Assembly: GCA_036504815.1 (NCBI GenBank)
Contig: DASXUN010000012.1
Location: 310,001-374,000, forward strand
Length of the DNA stretch: 64,000 nt
Source of the DNA: Gemmatimonadaceae bacterium
Lineage (GTDB): Bacteria > Gemmatimonadota > Gemmatimonadetes > Gemmatimonadales > Gemmatimonadaceae
Reading direction: 5' to 3'
In this document: positions 1,892-6,967 of the stretch, piece by piece
Position numbering within the stretch: position 1 is the first letter of the stretch
Layout: each line of letters begins with the position of its first letter
The notes under the pieces: model-generated
What the model saw: the letters and a program-made list of their open reading frames with translations, nothing else
Database searches by the model: none
Told to the model about the DNA's origin: nothing
Made by a program: the position numbers and the translations under genes

Positions 1892-2233
1892 ATGACTCCG
1901 CGCCGCCGCCGCTGGTTCCTCTCGATCTTCGCCGCGACCCTCACGGTCCTGGCCGCCTCCGGCTCTGCGGCTCAGACGCCCGACGGCAAGCTGGTCTTCG
2001 AGACCCATTGCCAGAAGTGCCACGGCCCAGCAGGTCGCCCGTCGGCCGGCATCAAGAAACTGCTGCCGGAGATTCCGCTCTGGGATGCCGCGTTCTTCGC
2101 TAAGCGCACCGAGGAGGACATCCTGAATGTCCTCCGGAACGGCAAGGGCAAGAACATGAAGCCGTTCAGTGACCGGCTGAAGCCCGAGGAGATGGTCGCC
2201 GTCGCCCGATACATCCGGACCCTGACACCGTAG
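1892..2233 (+). CDS. Exported monoheme cytochrome c (copy 1)
   Basis: Small class I c-type cytochrome of 113 aa. A signal peptide (MTPRRRRW followed by a hydrophobic stretch to ASGSAAQ, about residue 28) directs it to the periplasm. One haem motif CQKCH is at 40-44, and the Met of GKNMKPF is the probable sixth ligand. The C-terminal helix VARYIRTL is typical of the fold. ATG 1892 gives a complete signal peptide; the upstream in-frame starts do not. It is closely similar to the next gene, so the two are tandem paralogues. Its position ahead of the tetraheme/NrfD cluster suggests it shuttles electrons from that complex to a terminal oxidase (inference). Confidence 0.88.
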
Positions 2234-2542: not shown

Positions 2543-2857
2543 ATGCGTCCGTTCGTCCTGCTCGGTGCCTTGACTCTCGTCGTTTCCACTGCTGCCGCCC
2601 AGGGTGCTGACGGCAAGACAGTGTACGAAGCCAACTGCAAGAAGTGCCACGGTGTCACCGGCAAGCCGTCGGATGGCATCAAGAAGATGAATCCGAAGAT
2701 CGAGACGTTCGACGCCGCGTTCTTCGCGAAGCGCACGGATGCCGACCTTGCGAAGGGGATCAGCGAGGGCAAGGGCAAGATGAAGCCCTTCGGGGACAAG
2801 CTGAAGGCGGACGAGATCGCCGCCGTCGCCAAGTACATCCGCACCCTGAAGCCGTAA
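2543..2857 (+). CDS. Exported monoheme cytochrome c (copy 2)
   Basis: Class I cytochrome c of 104 aa with a signal peptide (MRPFVLLGALTLVVSTAAAQ), haem motif CKKCH at 32-36 and the likely axial Met in GKMKPFGDK. It aligns without large gaps to the preceding cytochrome, sharing DAAFFAKRT and the YIRTL C-terminus. ATG 2543 was preferred over the upstream ATG 2498 because it starts directly at the signal peptide. It has its own strong promoter, so it is probably expressed at a different level from copy 1. Expected role: periplasmic electron carrier for the adjacent quinol module. Confidence 0.88.
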   Translation: MRPFVLLGALTLVVSTAAAQGADGKTVYEANCKKCHGVTGKPSDGIKKMNPKIETFDAAFFAKRTDADLAKGISEGKGKMKPFGDKLKADEIAAVAKYIRTLKP

Positions 2858-2868
2858 GCCGCCGACCG

Positions 2869-2893
2869 GCGGCGCCGGCACCGCCGGCGCCGC
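2869..2893 (+). terminator. GC-only hairpin after cytochrome c copy 2
   Basis: Perfect 10-bp arms (2871-2880 and 2884-2893) with a 3-base loop lie 13 bases after the stop. There is no U-tract. It could be a weak terminator or an mRNA-stabilising hairpin that sets the monoheme cytochrome gene apart from the following oxidoreductase genes. Confidence 0.4.
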
Positions 2894-3028
2894 GCCCACA
2901 GCCATTGGTCAGGGCCGCACGCAGGCACCGCCGGTCCACCCGGCGACGCCGGGCAGCGTTGCGGGCTTGCTCCATCCCGACGGGGCGGCCACCCGCCCCA
3001 CGGCGCTTCCTTCTGACGGGGTCCGTTC

Positions 3029-3553
3029 ATGCGGCATGCAGGGCACTTCGTGCGGCTGCTCGCCCTTGTGGTCATCACGGTGGTCGGATTTCTGTACGTC
3101 CGATCGCTGGTGGTGCCCAAGGATTTTGGCGTCAAGGGCCATTTCCGCCTCTCCGCCATCGATGACGAGGGGAAGCGCGAGGCGCGGCACATTGGCAGCG
3201 ACGCCTGCGCCGAATGCCACGACGAGATCGGCGCGGCGTGGAAGGCCGGCAAGCACCACATCCCGCAGTGCGAGAACTGTCACGGCCCCGGCCTGCTGCA
3301 TACGAAGGTGGTGGCCGAGGACTCCACGGCCGGATACACCGACAAGATCCTGAAGCAGTTCCCGAAGGCGATCAATCCGGGCACGGGCATCACGGAATGC
3401 AAATGGTGCCACCTGAAGACGTTTGAGCGCCCGAGCTCCCTCAAGTACATCGTGAACGTCGAGAAGCACATCACCGAGCACCAGGGGACCTTCTCCCCCG
3501 CCTCGCGCTGCATCGACTGCCACAATCCGCACACGACGGTGGTCAAGCGATGA
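3029..3553 (+). CDS. Membrane-anchored tetraheme cytochrome c
   Basis: 174-residue multihaem cytochrome. An N-terminal membrane anchor (about residues 8-29) is followed by four CxxCH sites at 60-64 (CAECH), 81-85 (CENCH), 124-128 (CKWCH) and 161-165 (CIDCH). Several extra His residues (HH at 76-77, H91, H147, H151) could serve as distal ligands. It is the first gene of a block with the Fe-S and NrfD proteins and overlaps the next gene by ATGA. By analogy with NrfD-type respiratory complexes it should pass electrons between the complex and soluble cytochromes. The gene order recalls the Cbc4-type tetraheme/Fe-S/NrfD complexes of Geobacter; orthology is not established. Confidence 0.88.
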   Translation: MRHAGHFVRLLALVVITVVGFLYVRSLVVPKDFGVKGHFRLSAIDDEGKREARHIGSDACAECHDEIGAAWKAGKHHIPQCENCHGPGLLHTKVVAEDSTAGYTDKILKQFPKAINPGTGITECKWCHLKTFERPSSLKYIVNVEKHITEHQGTFSPASRCIDCHNPHTTVVKR

Positions 3554-4365
3554 GCCCCATCACCCCAGACGACGTCACGCGCCGGGAATTCCTGGAGACG
3601 GTCGCGAAGACGGGCGGCCAGAGTTTCCTCTTTGGCTCGCTGTTCGTGAACACCGCGCTCCTCCGCCTGCCGCAGGCGGGCGCCGATCCCAAGTCCCGCG
3701 CGGAAGCCGAGGTTGGCAAGGGGATCGTGTACGGCTTCGTGGTCGACACCACCAAGTGCATCGGCTGCGGTTCGTGCGTGCGGGCCTGCCGCGCCGAGAA
3801 TGGCGTGCCCGAGGGATACAACCGCACCTGGGTCGAGCAGTACACGTTCTATCCGGATGGCGAGGTCTTCGTGAACTCGCCCAATGGCGGCGAGAACGGC
3901 TTCGCCGATCCCGCCCCGACGCGCAACAAGCCCACCGGCCCGGAAGCGCCGATGCGCGGCTTCTTCGTGCCCAAGCTGTGCAACCACTGCATCGACACGC
4001 CCTGCATCCAGGTCTGCCCGGTGGGCGCGTCGTTCAAGACCGACGAGGGCGTGGTGCTGGTGGACCACGAACGGTGCGTGGGGTGCGGCTACTGCGTGCA
4101 GGCCTGCCCGTTCGGGTCGCGCTACCTCAACCCGGAAACGGGCACCGCCGACAAGTGCACGTGGTGCCATCACCGCGTGATCAAGGGGCTGCTCCCGGCC
4201 TGCGTGGTCTCCTGCCCCGCCGAGGCGCGCATCTTCGGCAACGTGAGCGACCCGGAAAGCACGATCAGCCGCATCCTGGCGACCAATCGCGTGCAGGTGC
4301 TGAAGTCCTTCCTTGGCACGCGGCCGCGCACCCGCTACATCGGGCTCGACTCAGAGGTGATCTAG
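3550..4365 (+). CDS. Four-cluster [4Fe-4S] ferredoxin subunit (NrfC/DmsB/HybA type) with Tat-like signal
   Basis: Electron-transfer subunit of 271 aa. The N-terminus has a twin-arginine motif (TRREFLE, 10-16) and a hydrophobic stretch, suggesting folded export. Four cysteine groups follow: CIGCGSCVRAC (from 70), CNHCIDTPCIQVCP, CVGCGYCVQACP and CTWCHHRVIKGLLPACVVSCP, the standard four-cluster pattern of this family. It overlaps the tetraheme gene (ATGA) and is directly followed by the NrfD gene. In known complexes this subunit sits between the quinol site of NrfD and a catalytic or cytochrome subunit. Here no molybdopterin subunit is encoded nearby, so the partner is probably the tetraheme cytochrome. 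Confidence 0.92.
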   Translation: MSPITPDDVTRREFLETVAKTGGQSFLFGSLFVNTALLRLPQAGADPKSRAEAEVGKGIVYGFVVDTTKCIGCGSCVRACRAENGVPEGYNRTWVEQYTFYPDGEVFVNSPNGGENGFADPAPTRNKPTGPEAPMRGFFVPKLCNHCIDTPCIQVCPVGASFKTDEGVVLVDHERCVGCGYCVQACPFGSRYLNPETGTADKCTWCHHRVIKGLLPACVVSCPAEARIFGNVSDPESTISRILATNRVQVLKSFLGTRPRTRYIGLDSEVI

Positions 4366-5607
4366 ATGCATCACTACATCACCGAGGGGTACGTCCTCCC
4401 CAACCAGGCGCACATCTACTGGACGACGATGATCGTGCTCTACCCGTACATCACGGGGATCGTCGCCGGCGCCTTCATCATCTCGTCGCTGCACCACGTC
4501 TTCGACAAGGACGAACTGAAGCCCGTGAGCCGGTTCGCCATGGTGATGGCGTTCGCGTTCGCGCTCTTCGCCACCCTGCCGCTGCTGAACCACCTCGGCC
4601 ATCCCGAACGGGCGTTGAACATCATGTTCACGCCCAACCTGACGTCGGCCATGGCCGGCTTCGGCTTCATCTACTCCACCTACCTGTTCATCCTGGCGGT
4701 GGAGATCTGGCTCGTCTACCGGACCGACATCGTCCACCTGTACCAGAACACCAGGTTCCCCGCGCTCAAGCCGGTCTACTGGCTGCTCGCGCTCGGCGTG
4801 CTCGACATCTCCAAGGAAGCCGAGGCGGTGGACCGCAAGGTGATGATCTTCCTTGCCTCGATCGGCATTCCGGCGGCGTGCGGCCTGCACGGCTACGTGG
4901 GCTTCATCTTCGGCGCGATCAAGGCGAATCCGTGGTGGGCCAGCCCGCTGATGCCGGTGATCTTCCTCCTCAGCGCGATCGTCTCGGGCGTCGCGATGGT
5001 GATGATCTGCTACATCCTCATCCACTGGGTGAAGGGCAAGGAGACCAGCTACGACTGCGTCCACGCGCTCATCGAGACGGCCTGGTATTTCCTCATCATC
5101 GACGTCGTGCTGGAACTGCTCGAGCTGGTCAACCATGCCTACATGGCCAACGAGGACTGGACGATCCTCAAGCAGCTGGTCACCGGCAAGCTGTTCGTGA
5201 GCATGTTCATCATCCAGATCCTGCTCGGCTCGGTGATTCCCTTCTTGGCAATGGGGGCCGTGGTCGTGTTCAAGGAGAAGGTGCCGGCGATGGCCCGCAA
5301 CGTGATCGGCGTCGTCTGCGGCCTGCTCCTGCTGGCGCAGGTGGGCGCGATGCGCTGGAACGTCGTGATGGGCGGCCAGATGTTCTCGAAGAGCCTGCGC
5401 GGCTTCCTGAACTTCGAAGTGGACCTCTACGGCCGTGAAGGGCTGTACGCGGGGATCGTCATCTTCGCGCTCCCCTTCGTGGTCATCTTCGTGTTCTCGC
5501 GGCTCCTGCCGCTGTGGGGCAATGTGGACACGTTCCCGAAGGAGTGGATGAAGGAGAAGCCGCCGGTGCGGCAGCCGTTGAAGGGCTGGTCGAAGTTCAC
5601 CTCGTAA
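4366..5607 (+). CDS. NrfD/PsrC-family quinol-interacting membrane subunit
   Basis: Polytopic membrane protein of 413 aa with about ten hydrophobic segments, beginning at the helix YWTTMIVLYPYITGIVAGAF. This is the NrfD family, which binds (mena)quinol and passes electrons to an Fe-S partner, sometimes with proton translocation. Its ATG immediately follows the TAG of the Fe-S gene. The length is that of the longer NrfD members. With the tetraheme and Fe-S proteins it would form a three-subunit quinol:cytochrome c oxidoreductase; the direction of electron flow is inferred, not visible. Confidence 0.92.
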   Translation: MHHYITEGYVLPNQAHIYWTTMIVLYPYITGIVAGAFIISSLHHVFDKDELKPVSRFAMVMAFAFALFATLPLLNHLGHPERALNIMFTPNLTSAMAGFGFIYSTYLFILAVEIWLVYRTDIVHLYQNTRFPALKPVYWLLALGVLDISKEAEAVDRKVMIFLASIGIPAACGLHGYVGFIFGAIKANPWWASPLMPVIFLLSAIVSGVAMVMICYILIHWVKGKETSYDCVHALIETAWYFLIIDVVLELLELVNHAYMANEDWTILKQLVTGKLFVSMFIIQILLGSVIPFLAMGAVVVFKEKVPAMARNVIGVVCGLLLLAQVGAMRWNVVMGGQMFSKSLRGFLNFEVDLYGREGLYAGIVIFALPFVVIFVFSRLLPLWGNVDTFPKEWMKEKPPVRQPLKGWSKFTS

Positions 5608-5642: not shown

Positions 5643-6407
5643 ATGAACGCCAACATAGTGAACTACCTCATCGCCGCCGCAGTCGCCGTCTTCCTCTTTC
5701 AGTACGGCGTGCGGATCGTGAAGCAATACGAGGGCGGCGTGGTGCTCCGCTTCGGCCGACTGATCGGGGTGCGCGCGCCGGGCCTGCGCTTCATCTTCCC
5801 GCTCATCGACCGGATGTTCAAGATCGACACCCGCGTGGTGACGCTGACGGTCGAACCGCAGGAGCTGATCACCCGCGACAACGTCACCATCAAGGTGGAC
5901 GCGGTGGTCTACTTCCAGGTGGTCGACTGCGCCAAGGCGCTCATCCAGGTCGAGCACTACGACCGGGCGACGTCGCAGATCGCGCTCACGACCCTCCGGA
6001 GCGTCCTCGGCCAGTCCGAACTCGACGAGCTGCTCGCGCAGCGCGACAAGATCAACCAGAAGCTCGCCACGATCATCGATCACCACACCGAGCCGTGGGG
6101 CGTGAAGGTCTCGGTGGTCGAGGTGAAGGATGTCCTGCTGCCCGAGACGATGCAGCGCTCGATGGCCGCGCAGGCCGAAGCCGAGCGTGAGAAGCGCGCC
6201 AAGATCATCCGCGCGGACGGCGAGTTCCTCGCGGCGGAGACGCTCGGCAAGGCGGCGGTCATCATCCGCGACAACCCGCCCGCCCTGCAGCTGCGCTACC
6301 TGCAGACGCTGACCGAGATGACGAGCAATGGCAACGGCACCATCGTGCCGGTGACGATGGACCTGCTGGGCGGCATCAAGTCGGCGTTCGGCGGCGAGTC
6401 GAAGTAG
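5643..6407 (+). CDS. SPFH/band 7 (slipin-type) membrane protein
   Basis: 254-residue prohibitin/stomatin-like protein. One N-terminal membrane segment (about 6-22) is followed by a band 7 domain (QYEGGVVLRFGRL to DVLLPETMQRSMAAQAEAEREKRAKII), the Ala/Glu-rich coiled-coil and the C-terminal LQTLTEM segment typical of slipins. It starts at ATG 5643 behind GGAGA. Such proteins oligomerise into rings or scaffolds that organise or protect membrane complexes. Placement 35 bases after nrfD suggests it supports the same respiratory complex (inference). A terminator follows it. Confidence 0.9.
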   Translation: MNANIVNYLIAAAVAVFLFQYGVRIVKQYEGGVVLRFGRLIGVRAPGLRFIFPLIDRMFKIDTRVVTLTVEPQELITRDNVTIKVDAVVYFQVVDCAKALIQVEHYDRATSQIALTTLRSVLGQSELDELLAQRDKINQKLATIIDHHTEPWGVKVSVVEVKDVLLPETMQRSMAAQAEAEREKRAKIIRADGEFLAAETLGKAAVIIRDNPPALQLRYLQTLTEMTSNGNGTIVPVTMDLLGGIKSAFGGESK

Positions 6408-6430: not shown

Positions 6431-6474
6431 AGGCCGGTGCGCACGCAACGTGGCGTGCGCCCGGCCTTGCGTTT
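6431..6474 (+). terminator. Rho-independent terminator after the slipin gene
   Basis: 14-bp stem with one bulge (AGGCCGG 431-437 with CCGGCCT 461-467; GCGCACG with CGTGCGC inside), followed by TGCGTTT. It closes the quinol-module transcription unit. The tail shares TTGCGTTTGAT with the lexA terminator near 28081. Confidence 0.7.
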
Positions 6475-6526
6475 GATCCCGCACCCGGGCGCGCGACGCG
6501 GCCGTCGCGTCCCCGAGGTTCCACCC

Positions 6527-6967
6527 GTGTTCCGCTTCCGCGCCCTCTTTGCGCTGATCGCCCTCGCCGTCGCCTGCGGCGGCCGCGACGCCCCCGCCCC
6601 CGCTGGCTCGCTCAGCGTGCACGACGCCTGGGCACGCGCCGCCGACTCCGGCATGGTGACGGCGGTGTACCTGTCGCTCGTGAATACCGAACGCGCCGCC
6701 GTCACGCTCACCGGCGCGGCCTCCCCGCTGGCCGACGCCGTGTCGCTGCACATGACGCACGAGATGGACGGCATGGTGCACATGATGCCGCTCGACTCGG
6801 CGCCGATCGCACCCGGCGACTCGCTCGTGCTCGCCGTGAACGCCAAGCACCTGATGGTGAACGGCCTGCGGCGCAAGCTCGCGGCGGGTGACTCGCTCCC
6901 AGTGACGCTGTCGTTCACTGGCGGCCGGACGCTCGAATTCCGGGCGCTGGTGCGCTCGCCGTACTGA
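6527..6967 (+). CDS. PCu(A)C-type periplasmic copper chaperone, probable lipoprotein
   Basis: About 146 aa from GTG 6527, with GAGG about ten bases upstream. The N-terminus is a lipoprotein signal ending in the lipobox LAVAC. The domain is DUF461/PCuAC: WARAADSGMVTAVYLSLVN, then the Met/His copper site (LHMTHEMDGMVHMMPL followed by KHLMVNGL). These chaperones deliver Cu(I) to the CuA or CuB site of cytochrome oxidases. The position next to the respiratory cluster fits maturation of a terminal oxidase encoded elsewhere. The in-frame upstream ATG 6437 lies within the terminator stem and was rejected. Confidence 0.88.
   Translation: MFRFRALFALIALAVACGGRDAPAPAGSLSVHDAWARAADSGMVTAVYLSLVNTERAAVTLTGAASPLADAVSLHMTHEMDGMVHMMPLDSAPIAPGDSLVLAVNAKHLMVNGLRRKLAAGDSLPVTLSFTGGRTLEFRALVRSPY

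Follow-up and report, generated by a model that had tools for sequence, protein, structure and literature searches.

We analyzed a stretch of 64,000 nucleotides (hereafter, the window) from contig DASXUN010000012.1 of the Gemmatimonadaceae bacterium assembly GCA_036504815.1, a genome of 3.5 Mb that is 99.4% complete. Near the start of the window lies a block of redox genes that includes a tetrahaem cytochrome c, an iron-sulfur (Fe-S) protein and an NrfD-family membrane protein, the three genes that we call the module. The protein families of the block were assigned with Pfam and NCBIfam models, and its genes are the following:

1892..2233, + strand: monohaem cytochrome c, a paralogue of the next gene (Pfam Cytochrome_CBB3/Cytochrom_C)
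2543..2857, + strand: monohaem cytochrome c (Pfam)
3029..3553, + strand: CbcS-like tetrahaem cytochrome c with an N-terminal membrane anchor (four CXXCH motifs; helix 3-28 in the AlphaFold2 model)
3550..4365, + strand: CbcT-like, Tat-exported four-cluster Fe-S protein (16 cysteines in four groups; Fer4_11 and related models)
4366..5607, + strand: CbcU-like membrane protein of the NrfD family, predicted to bind quinol (Pfam NrfD, 135 bits)
5643..6407, + strand: slipin (SPFH/Band 7; Pfam Band_7)
6437..6967, + strand: PCu(A)C copper chaperone (Pfam PCuAC)

The three genes of the module are tightly coupled, since the Fe-S gene overlaps the tetrahaem gene by 4 bases and the NrfD gene starts at the very next base. 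The two monohaem cytochromes are 56% identical, and genes for methylmalonyl-CoA enzymes lie on both sides of the block. A first-pass annotation, made from the sequence alone, had listed the same components, from the cytochromes c to the slipin and the copper chaperone, and the family models place all of them where it did. It had also reported that no catalytic molybdopterin or multihaem reductase is present. Indeed, none is encoded beside the three genes, and we found no molybdenum, NrfA or HAO-like gene within the block (NrfA, HAO-like and octahaem reductase genes were not sought genome-wide).

The tetrahaem protein has the haem motifs CAECH60, CENCH81, CKWCH124 and CIDCH161. Four histidines outside these motifs (H76, H91, H147 and H168) are invariant in 35 relatives and fit a bis-histidine ligation of all four haems, which would make the protein a carrier of electrons and not a catalyst; the same comparison gave no sign of an open haem. 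A Foldseek search with its model returned zero matches at E <= 0.001, the weak top rows being NrfH. The Fe-S protein has an RR motif (TRREFLE) and enough cysteines for four clusters, and its closest chain in the PDB is PsrB (2vpw_B). Its CTWCH motif was considered as a fifth haem site and rejected: homologues in sister genera lack it, and it is therefore a cluster ligand. Searches of the NrfD sequence against PDB chains, profile search included, gave nothing, and the protein was placed by fold search only. The solved folds nearest to its AlphaFold2 model (pLDDT 88, pTM 0.89) are the ActC subunits of alternative complex III (ACIII), with Z of 32-34. Its H76 and S94, invariant in 52 relatives, align with H74 and S92 of Escherichia coli NrfD and with H137 and S162 of the host's own ActC, positions at which NrfD-like subunits were proposed to bind quinone (PMC8076601).

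This anatomy suggests a path for the electrons. NrfD would bind menaquinol at the periplasmic face of the inner membrane, as its conserved residues and fold indicate. The electrons would then enter the exported Fe-S protein and move through its four [4Fe-4S] clusters to the anchored tetrahaem cytochrome, which may pass them to carriers in the periplasm; the two adjoining monohaem cytochromes c are the simplest candidates. From these, they could reach c-type oxidases and/or the porin-cytochrome (MtrAB) conduits of the outer membrane. The minimal menaquinol:cytochrome c module proposed in the first-pass annotation is thus supported by the additional invariant histidines, the conserved His/Ser pair of the putative quinone site and the nearest known family, which is Cbc4.

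The operon of Cbc4, CbcSTU, is conserved in Geobacteraceae, encodes a four-haem cytochrome, a 4Fe-4S protein and a membrane protein, and is annotated as a menaquinol oxidoreductase; its function is known mainly from annotation and expression data (PMC10989804, PMC7894505, PMC11434368). Four of the five genomes with PpcA-like cytochromes, which we label Geobacter-type because of these genes and not because of organism names, carry a tetrahaem - Fe-S - NrfD operon that lacks a catalytic subunit, like that of the window. A VP.DFG segment that follows the N-terminal anchor is shared between the tetrahaem proteins of these operons and that of the window. A tree of NrfD proteins groups the window protein with its homologues and the Geobacter-type proteins in a single clade (SH-aLRT 100, stem 1.79), which leaves outside E. 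coli NrfD and the host's own ActC, ActF, DsrP-like, PsrC-like and HybB/HmcC-like proteins. The tree was built quickly and has long outgroup branches; its order within the clade is only partly settled, and a long branch there separates the Geobacter-type proteins from that of the window. The Gemmatimonadota modules also differ from Cbc4 in their context of bc, MtrAB, monohaem cytochrome c, slipin and PCuAC genes. Altogether, we consider it probable that the block encodes a Cbc4-type (CbcSTU-like) menaquinol:multihaem-cytochrome c oxidoreductase, at a locus that would be a trimmed form of an operon which, in relatives, includes MtrAB and/or Rieske/cytochrome b as well.

The kind is already known, since NetBCD-type quinol dehydrogenases of the Nrf family serve MtrCAB conduits, as described in Aeromonas hydrophila (PMC8805035, PMC9012536). 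By its description, NetBCD resembles the Gemmatimonadota module in being a Nrf-family quinol dehydrogenase of the inner membrane linked to an MtrAB-type conduit, but the conduit genes are missing at the locus of the window. Membership in other NrfD-type systems was rejected. For DsrMKJOP, the DsrP model gives 52 bits against a cut-off of 350, the cytochrome is tetrahaem instead of the trihaem DsrJ, and the tree disagrees. The PsrABC/TtrABC type is contradicted by the tree and by the lack of a molybdopterin catalytic subunit in the block. ACIII shares with the module the closest fold and the quinol:cytochrome c chemistry, but the block is not a fragment of its ActABC core: it has neither the pentahaem ActA nor ActB, ActC falls outside the clade, and the genome has a separate, full ACIII.

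The module could also be the NrfBCD-like part of a reductase whose catalytic subunit lies elsewhere, be it an unlinked NrfA, a molybdenum enzyme or an octahaem reductase. E. coli NrfBCD indeed has the order multihaem - Fe-S - NrfD and a predicted quinol dehydrogenase role. However, NrfB is pentahaem and preceded by NrfA, and E. coli NrfD is outside the clade; the window protein scores 66 bits with the NrfD model, for a cut-off of 347.6, and together with gene content and the tree this led us to reject membership in NrfABCD. Among the molybdopterin matches of the host genome, a PhsA-like protein comes with B and C subunits of its own, a stand-alone protein has no Tat motif at the start of its open reading frame, and two others are ActB and a protein that looks NuoG-like from its start; a fifth match is weak, at 33 bits. 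At 21 loci (L104, L105, L114, L119, L122, L134 and others), an HAO-like octahaem cytochrome (PF13447) is encoded about 1.3 kb downstream of a Desulfobulbaceae-type module, whereas no Gemmatimonadota locus has such a gene beside the module. We regard an unlinked reductase as very unlikely.

The first-pass annotation saw the lack of a catalytic subunit as unusual. The distribution of the module says otherwise. A high-scoring relative of the NrfD protein is found in 26 of the 298 sampled Gemmatimonadota genomes, including 7 out of 8 in the genus of the window, and is patchy in the rest of the phylum. The order multihaem - Fe-S - NrfD holds at all 25 Gemmatimonadota loci whose flank was available. 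The tetrahaem version occurs in three genera of the window's family; the remaining Gemmatimonadota found have an octahaem version, whose first half is similar to the tetrahaem protein. The same three genes, mostly in the tetrahaem version, were found at about 70 loci outside the phylum (Desulfobacterota, Myxococcota, Planctomycetota, Acidobacteriota, Spirochaetota, Ignavibacteriota, Chloroflexota, Methanoperedens and others). Being repeated at about 95 loci, the three-gene order goes far beyond chance, and a module without a catalytic subunit is the normal and widespread state of the Cbc4 kind. Those relatives that public records name are Gemmatimonadetes metagenome-assembled genomes (MAGs), several of them from groundwater, judging by isolate names. 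One groundwater deltaproteobacterial MAG (L093:4268-6783) has a module whose NrfD is 64% identical and falls inside the Gemmatimonadota tetrahaem clade, possibly by transfer or by a binning error.

The gene order in relatives provides the link to MtrAB outer-membrane conduits, a point missing from the first-pass annotation. Several related genomes can be compared at one address, which is flanked by mmdA/mcm-B12 genes on one side and by methylmalonyl-CoA mutase/ArgK genes on the other, and Pfam confirms the Rieske protein, the N- and C-terminal domains of cytochrome b, MtrB_PioB and the multihaem proteins in these operons:

G057 (L216), at the address: Rieske - cytochrome b - cytochrome c - MtrA - MtrB
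G082 (L066), near the mmdA genes: Rieske - cytochrome b - cytochrome c - MtrA - MtrB - tetrahaem - Fe-S - NrfD
G063 (L083): a cluster nearly identical to that of G082, split over two contig ends, with mutase/ArgK on the second contig (L084)
G091 (L067), address flanks not in the stretch read: Rieske - cytochrome b - cytochrome c - module, without MtrAB
G114 (L062), at the address: cytochrome c - cytochrome c - MtrA - MtrB - module - slipin - PCuAC
G201 (L063), at the address: cytochrome c - MtrA - MtrB - module - slipin - PCuAC
The window, L059, L060, L061 and L088, at the address: one or two cytochromes c - module - slipin - PCuAC

The monohaem cytochromes of the window are homologous to those adjacent to bc genes in sister genera (L065-L067), with identities of 38-45% for 1892-2233 and of 48-49% for 2543-2857. 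In the NrfD tree, the MtrAB-bearing members of the genus branch outside the group of the window (support 91), which makes a loss of MtrAB in this group the simplest reading, although a transfer may also explain the pattern. We found no remnant of MtrB in the window, and the weak MtrA matches there fall on the tetrahaem gene itself. Our search of the literature, limited to open-licence papers, did not find this operon series described. We tentatively propose, at somewhat less than even chances, that three cassettes (Rieske/cytochrome b, MtrAB and the Cbc4-type module) are exchanged at this site in Gemmatimonadaceae around a monohaem cytochrome c common to all arrangements, the bc genes or the NrfD module being interchangeable quinone ends of the outer-membrane conduit; the module would have displaced bc in the window's genus, and MtrAB would later have been lost in its subgroup. 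In a sister genus, two multihaem cytochromes with 13 and 19 CXXCH motifs, fused to a b561-type membrane domain (L065:574-5532), adjoin a Rieske/cytochrome b pair.

These associations are also visible in the counts. Rieske and cytochrome b genes are no farther than about 9 kb from the module at 19 of 105 loci (17 without two duplicate records), which belong to Gemmatimonadota or are titled Deltaproteobacteria, Dehalococcoidia and Phycisphaerae. Given the density of bc-type cytochrome b (22 matches of at least 134 bits in about 99 Mb, from 28 genomes), the 434 kb of Gemmatimonadota loci should hold about 0.1 and hold 12, an expectation that is rough arithmetic on related, non-independent genomes. 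MtrB is present in 12/26 genomes with the module and in 13/272 without it; by genus, the figures are 5/16 and 6/103 (Fisher p = 0.007). MtrB and the module are thus found together more often than chance would predict. Since the module is of the Cbc4 kind and clusters in relatives with an outer-membrane conduit and a bc complex, we read it as moving electrons between menaquinone and periplasmic cytochromes, most likely feeding those of an extracellular or periplasmic electron branch, and not as an odd reductase whose molybdenum subunit was lost.

The flow might also run in reverse, with electrons from outside (e.g. from ferrous iron) entering through MtrAB-type conduits and periplasmic cytochromes, the module feeding part of them to menaquinone and oxidases taking the rest. 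The pairing of MtrAB with Rieske/cytochrome b and monohaem cytochromes c in relatives could suit such an uptake, and the genome encodes aa3 and cbb3 oxidases. On the other hand, both Cbc4 and NetBCD have been described as oxidising quinol, and MtrB is found in only part of the module-bearing genomes. Because of the low potential of menaquinone, electron flow into it would cost energy. We therefore deem the reverse direction rather unlikely.

Menaquinone is the likely quinone of the host: menB has no match over its cut-off in the genome, but the futalosine pathway, represented by two genes of the MqnA/MqnD family, accounts for menaquinone. The genome-wide search proposed in the first-pass annotation found no bc1-type cytochrome b (the sole PF00033 match is an ExtP-like hybrid), and none occurs in the 7 other members of the genus tested. 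It did find a complete ACIII, with the ActA to ActF genes together on contig C18 beside cytochrome c maturation genes, as well as the aa3 and cbb3 oxidases. The suggestion that the module replaces or bypasses bc1 is thus weakened: bc1 is lacking, but the full ACIII and the oxidases cover the main menaquinol:cytochrome c reaction without the module, and in the family Rieske/cytochrome b genes often lie beside it. A narrower version holds that, in this genus, the module took the place of bc and supplies the oxidases with reduced monohaem cytochrome c; the genus lacks bc genes and yet keeps homologues of the bc-linked cytochromes c beside the module. The ACIII speaks against it, as do the sister genera and the loci of other phyla where bc and module stand side by side. 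We find this substitution unlikely, and in our best reading the module is not the sole bc1 substitute of the genome.

Some observations weigh against the Cbc4-type interpretation as we have framed it. The operon's own MtrAB is gone from the host locus and left no remnant, the module and ACIII would be parallel routes to cytochrome c, and bc genes adjoining MtrAB would also fit electron uptake. The host has three other pairs of a decahaem MtrA and an MtrB, and the C18 pair was rejected as the relocated operon pair, the MtrB proteins being only ~22-25% identical to that of the module-linked pair. These pairs and further redox genes of the genome, which also has a PhsA/PsrABC-type enzyme on C8, are the following:

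C18:32.6-36.0 kb (L197:8648-12016): MtrA-MtrB pair, ~9 kb from the ACIII genes
C21:167-170.5 kb (L198:9296-12533): MtrA-MtrB pair
C6:1-2.1 kb (L199:2-2070): MtrA-MtrB pair
C4:45.9-47.4 kb (L054:10858-12429): hybrid of cytochrome b, ferredoxin and FlpD, most similar to ExtP, next to a divergent COX1/COX2 pair
C3:45.5-48.3 kb (L049:7525-10287): DsrP-type module with a tetrahaem lipoprotein-like cytochrome, an Fe-S protein and NrfD (DsrP 402 bits, over the NCBIfam cut-off)
C20:28.4-31.7 kb (L051:7439-10723): 13-haem cytochrome, Fe-S protein and HmcC/HybB-like membrane protein

Downstream of the module, the PCuAC gene is conserved across the genus of the window. The slipin is kept in this genus and in one g3 genome, and is absent in g9. 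A Dehalococcoidia MAG (L141) has in a row a slipin, an octahaem cytochrome, an Fe-S protein, NrfD, Rieske and cytochrome b, so that the association of slipin and module recurs in a second phylum.

The absence of a molybdenum subunit from an NrfD block is thus no anomaly, which corrects the earlier idea. The locus places a Cbc4-type quinol module in Gemmatimonadota, where the gene order of close relatives shows its neighbouring parts, and the natural pairs of genomes with and without bc genes and MtrAB lend themselves to testing the function of Cbc4.

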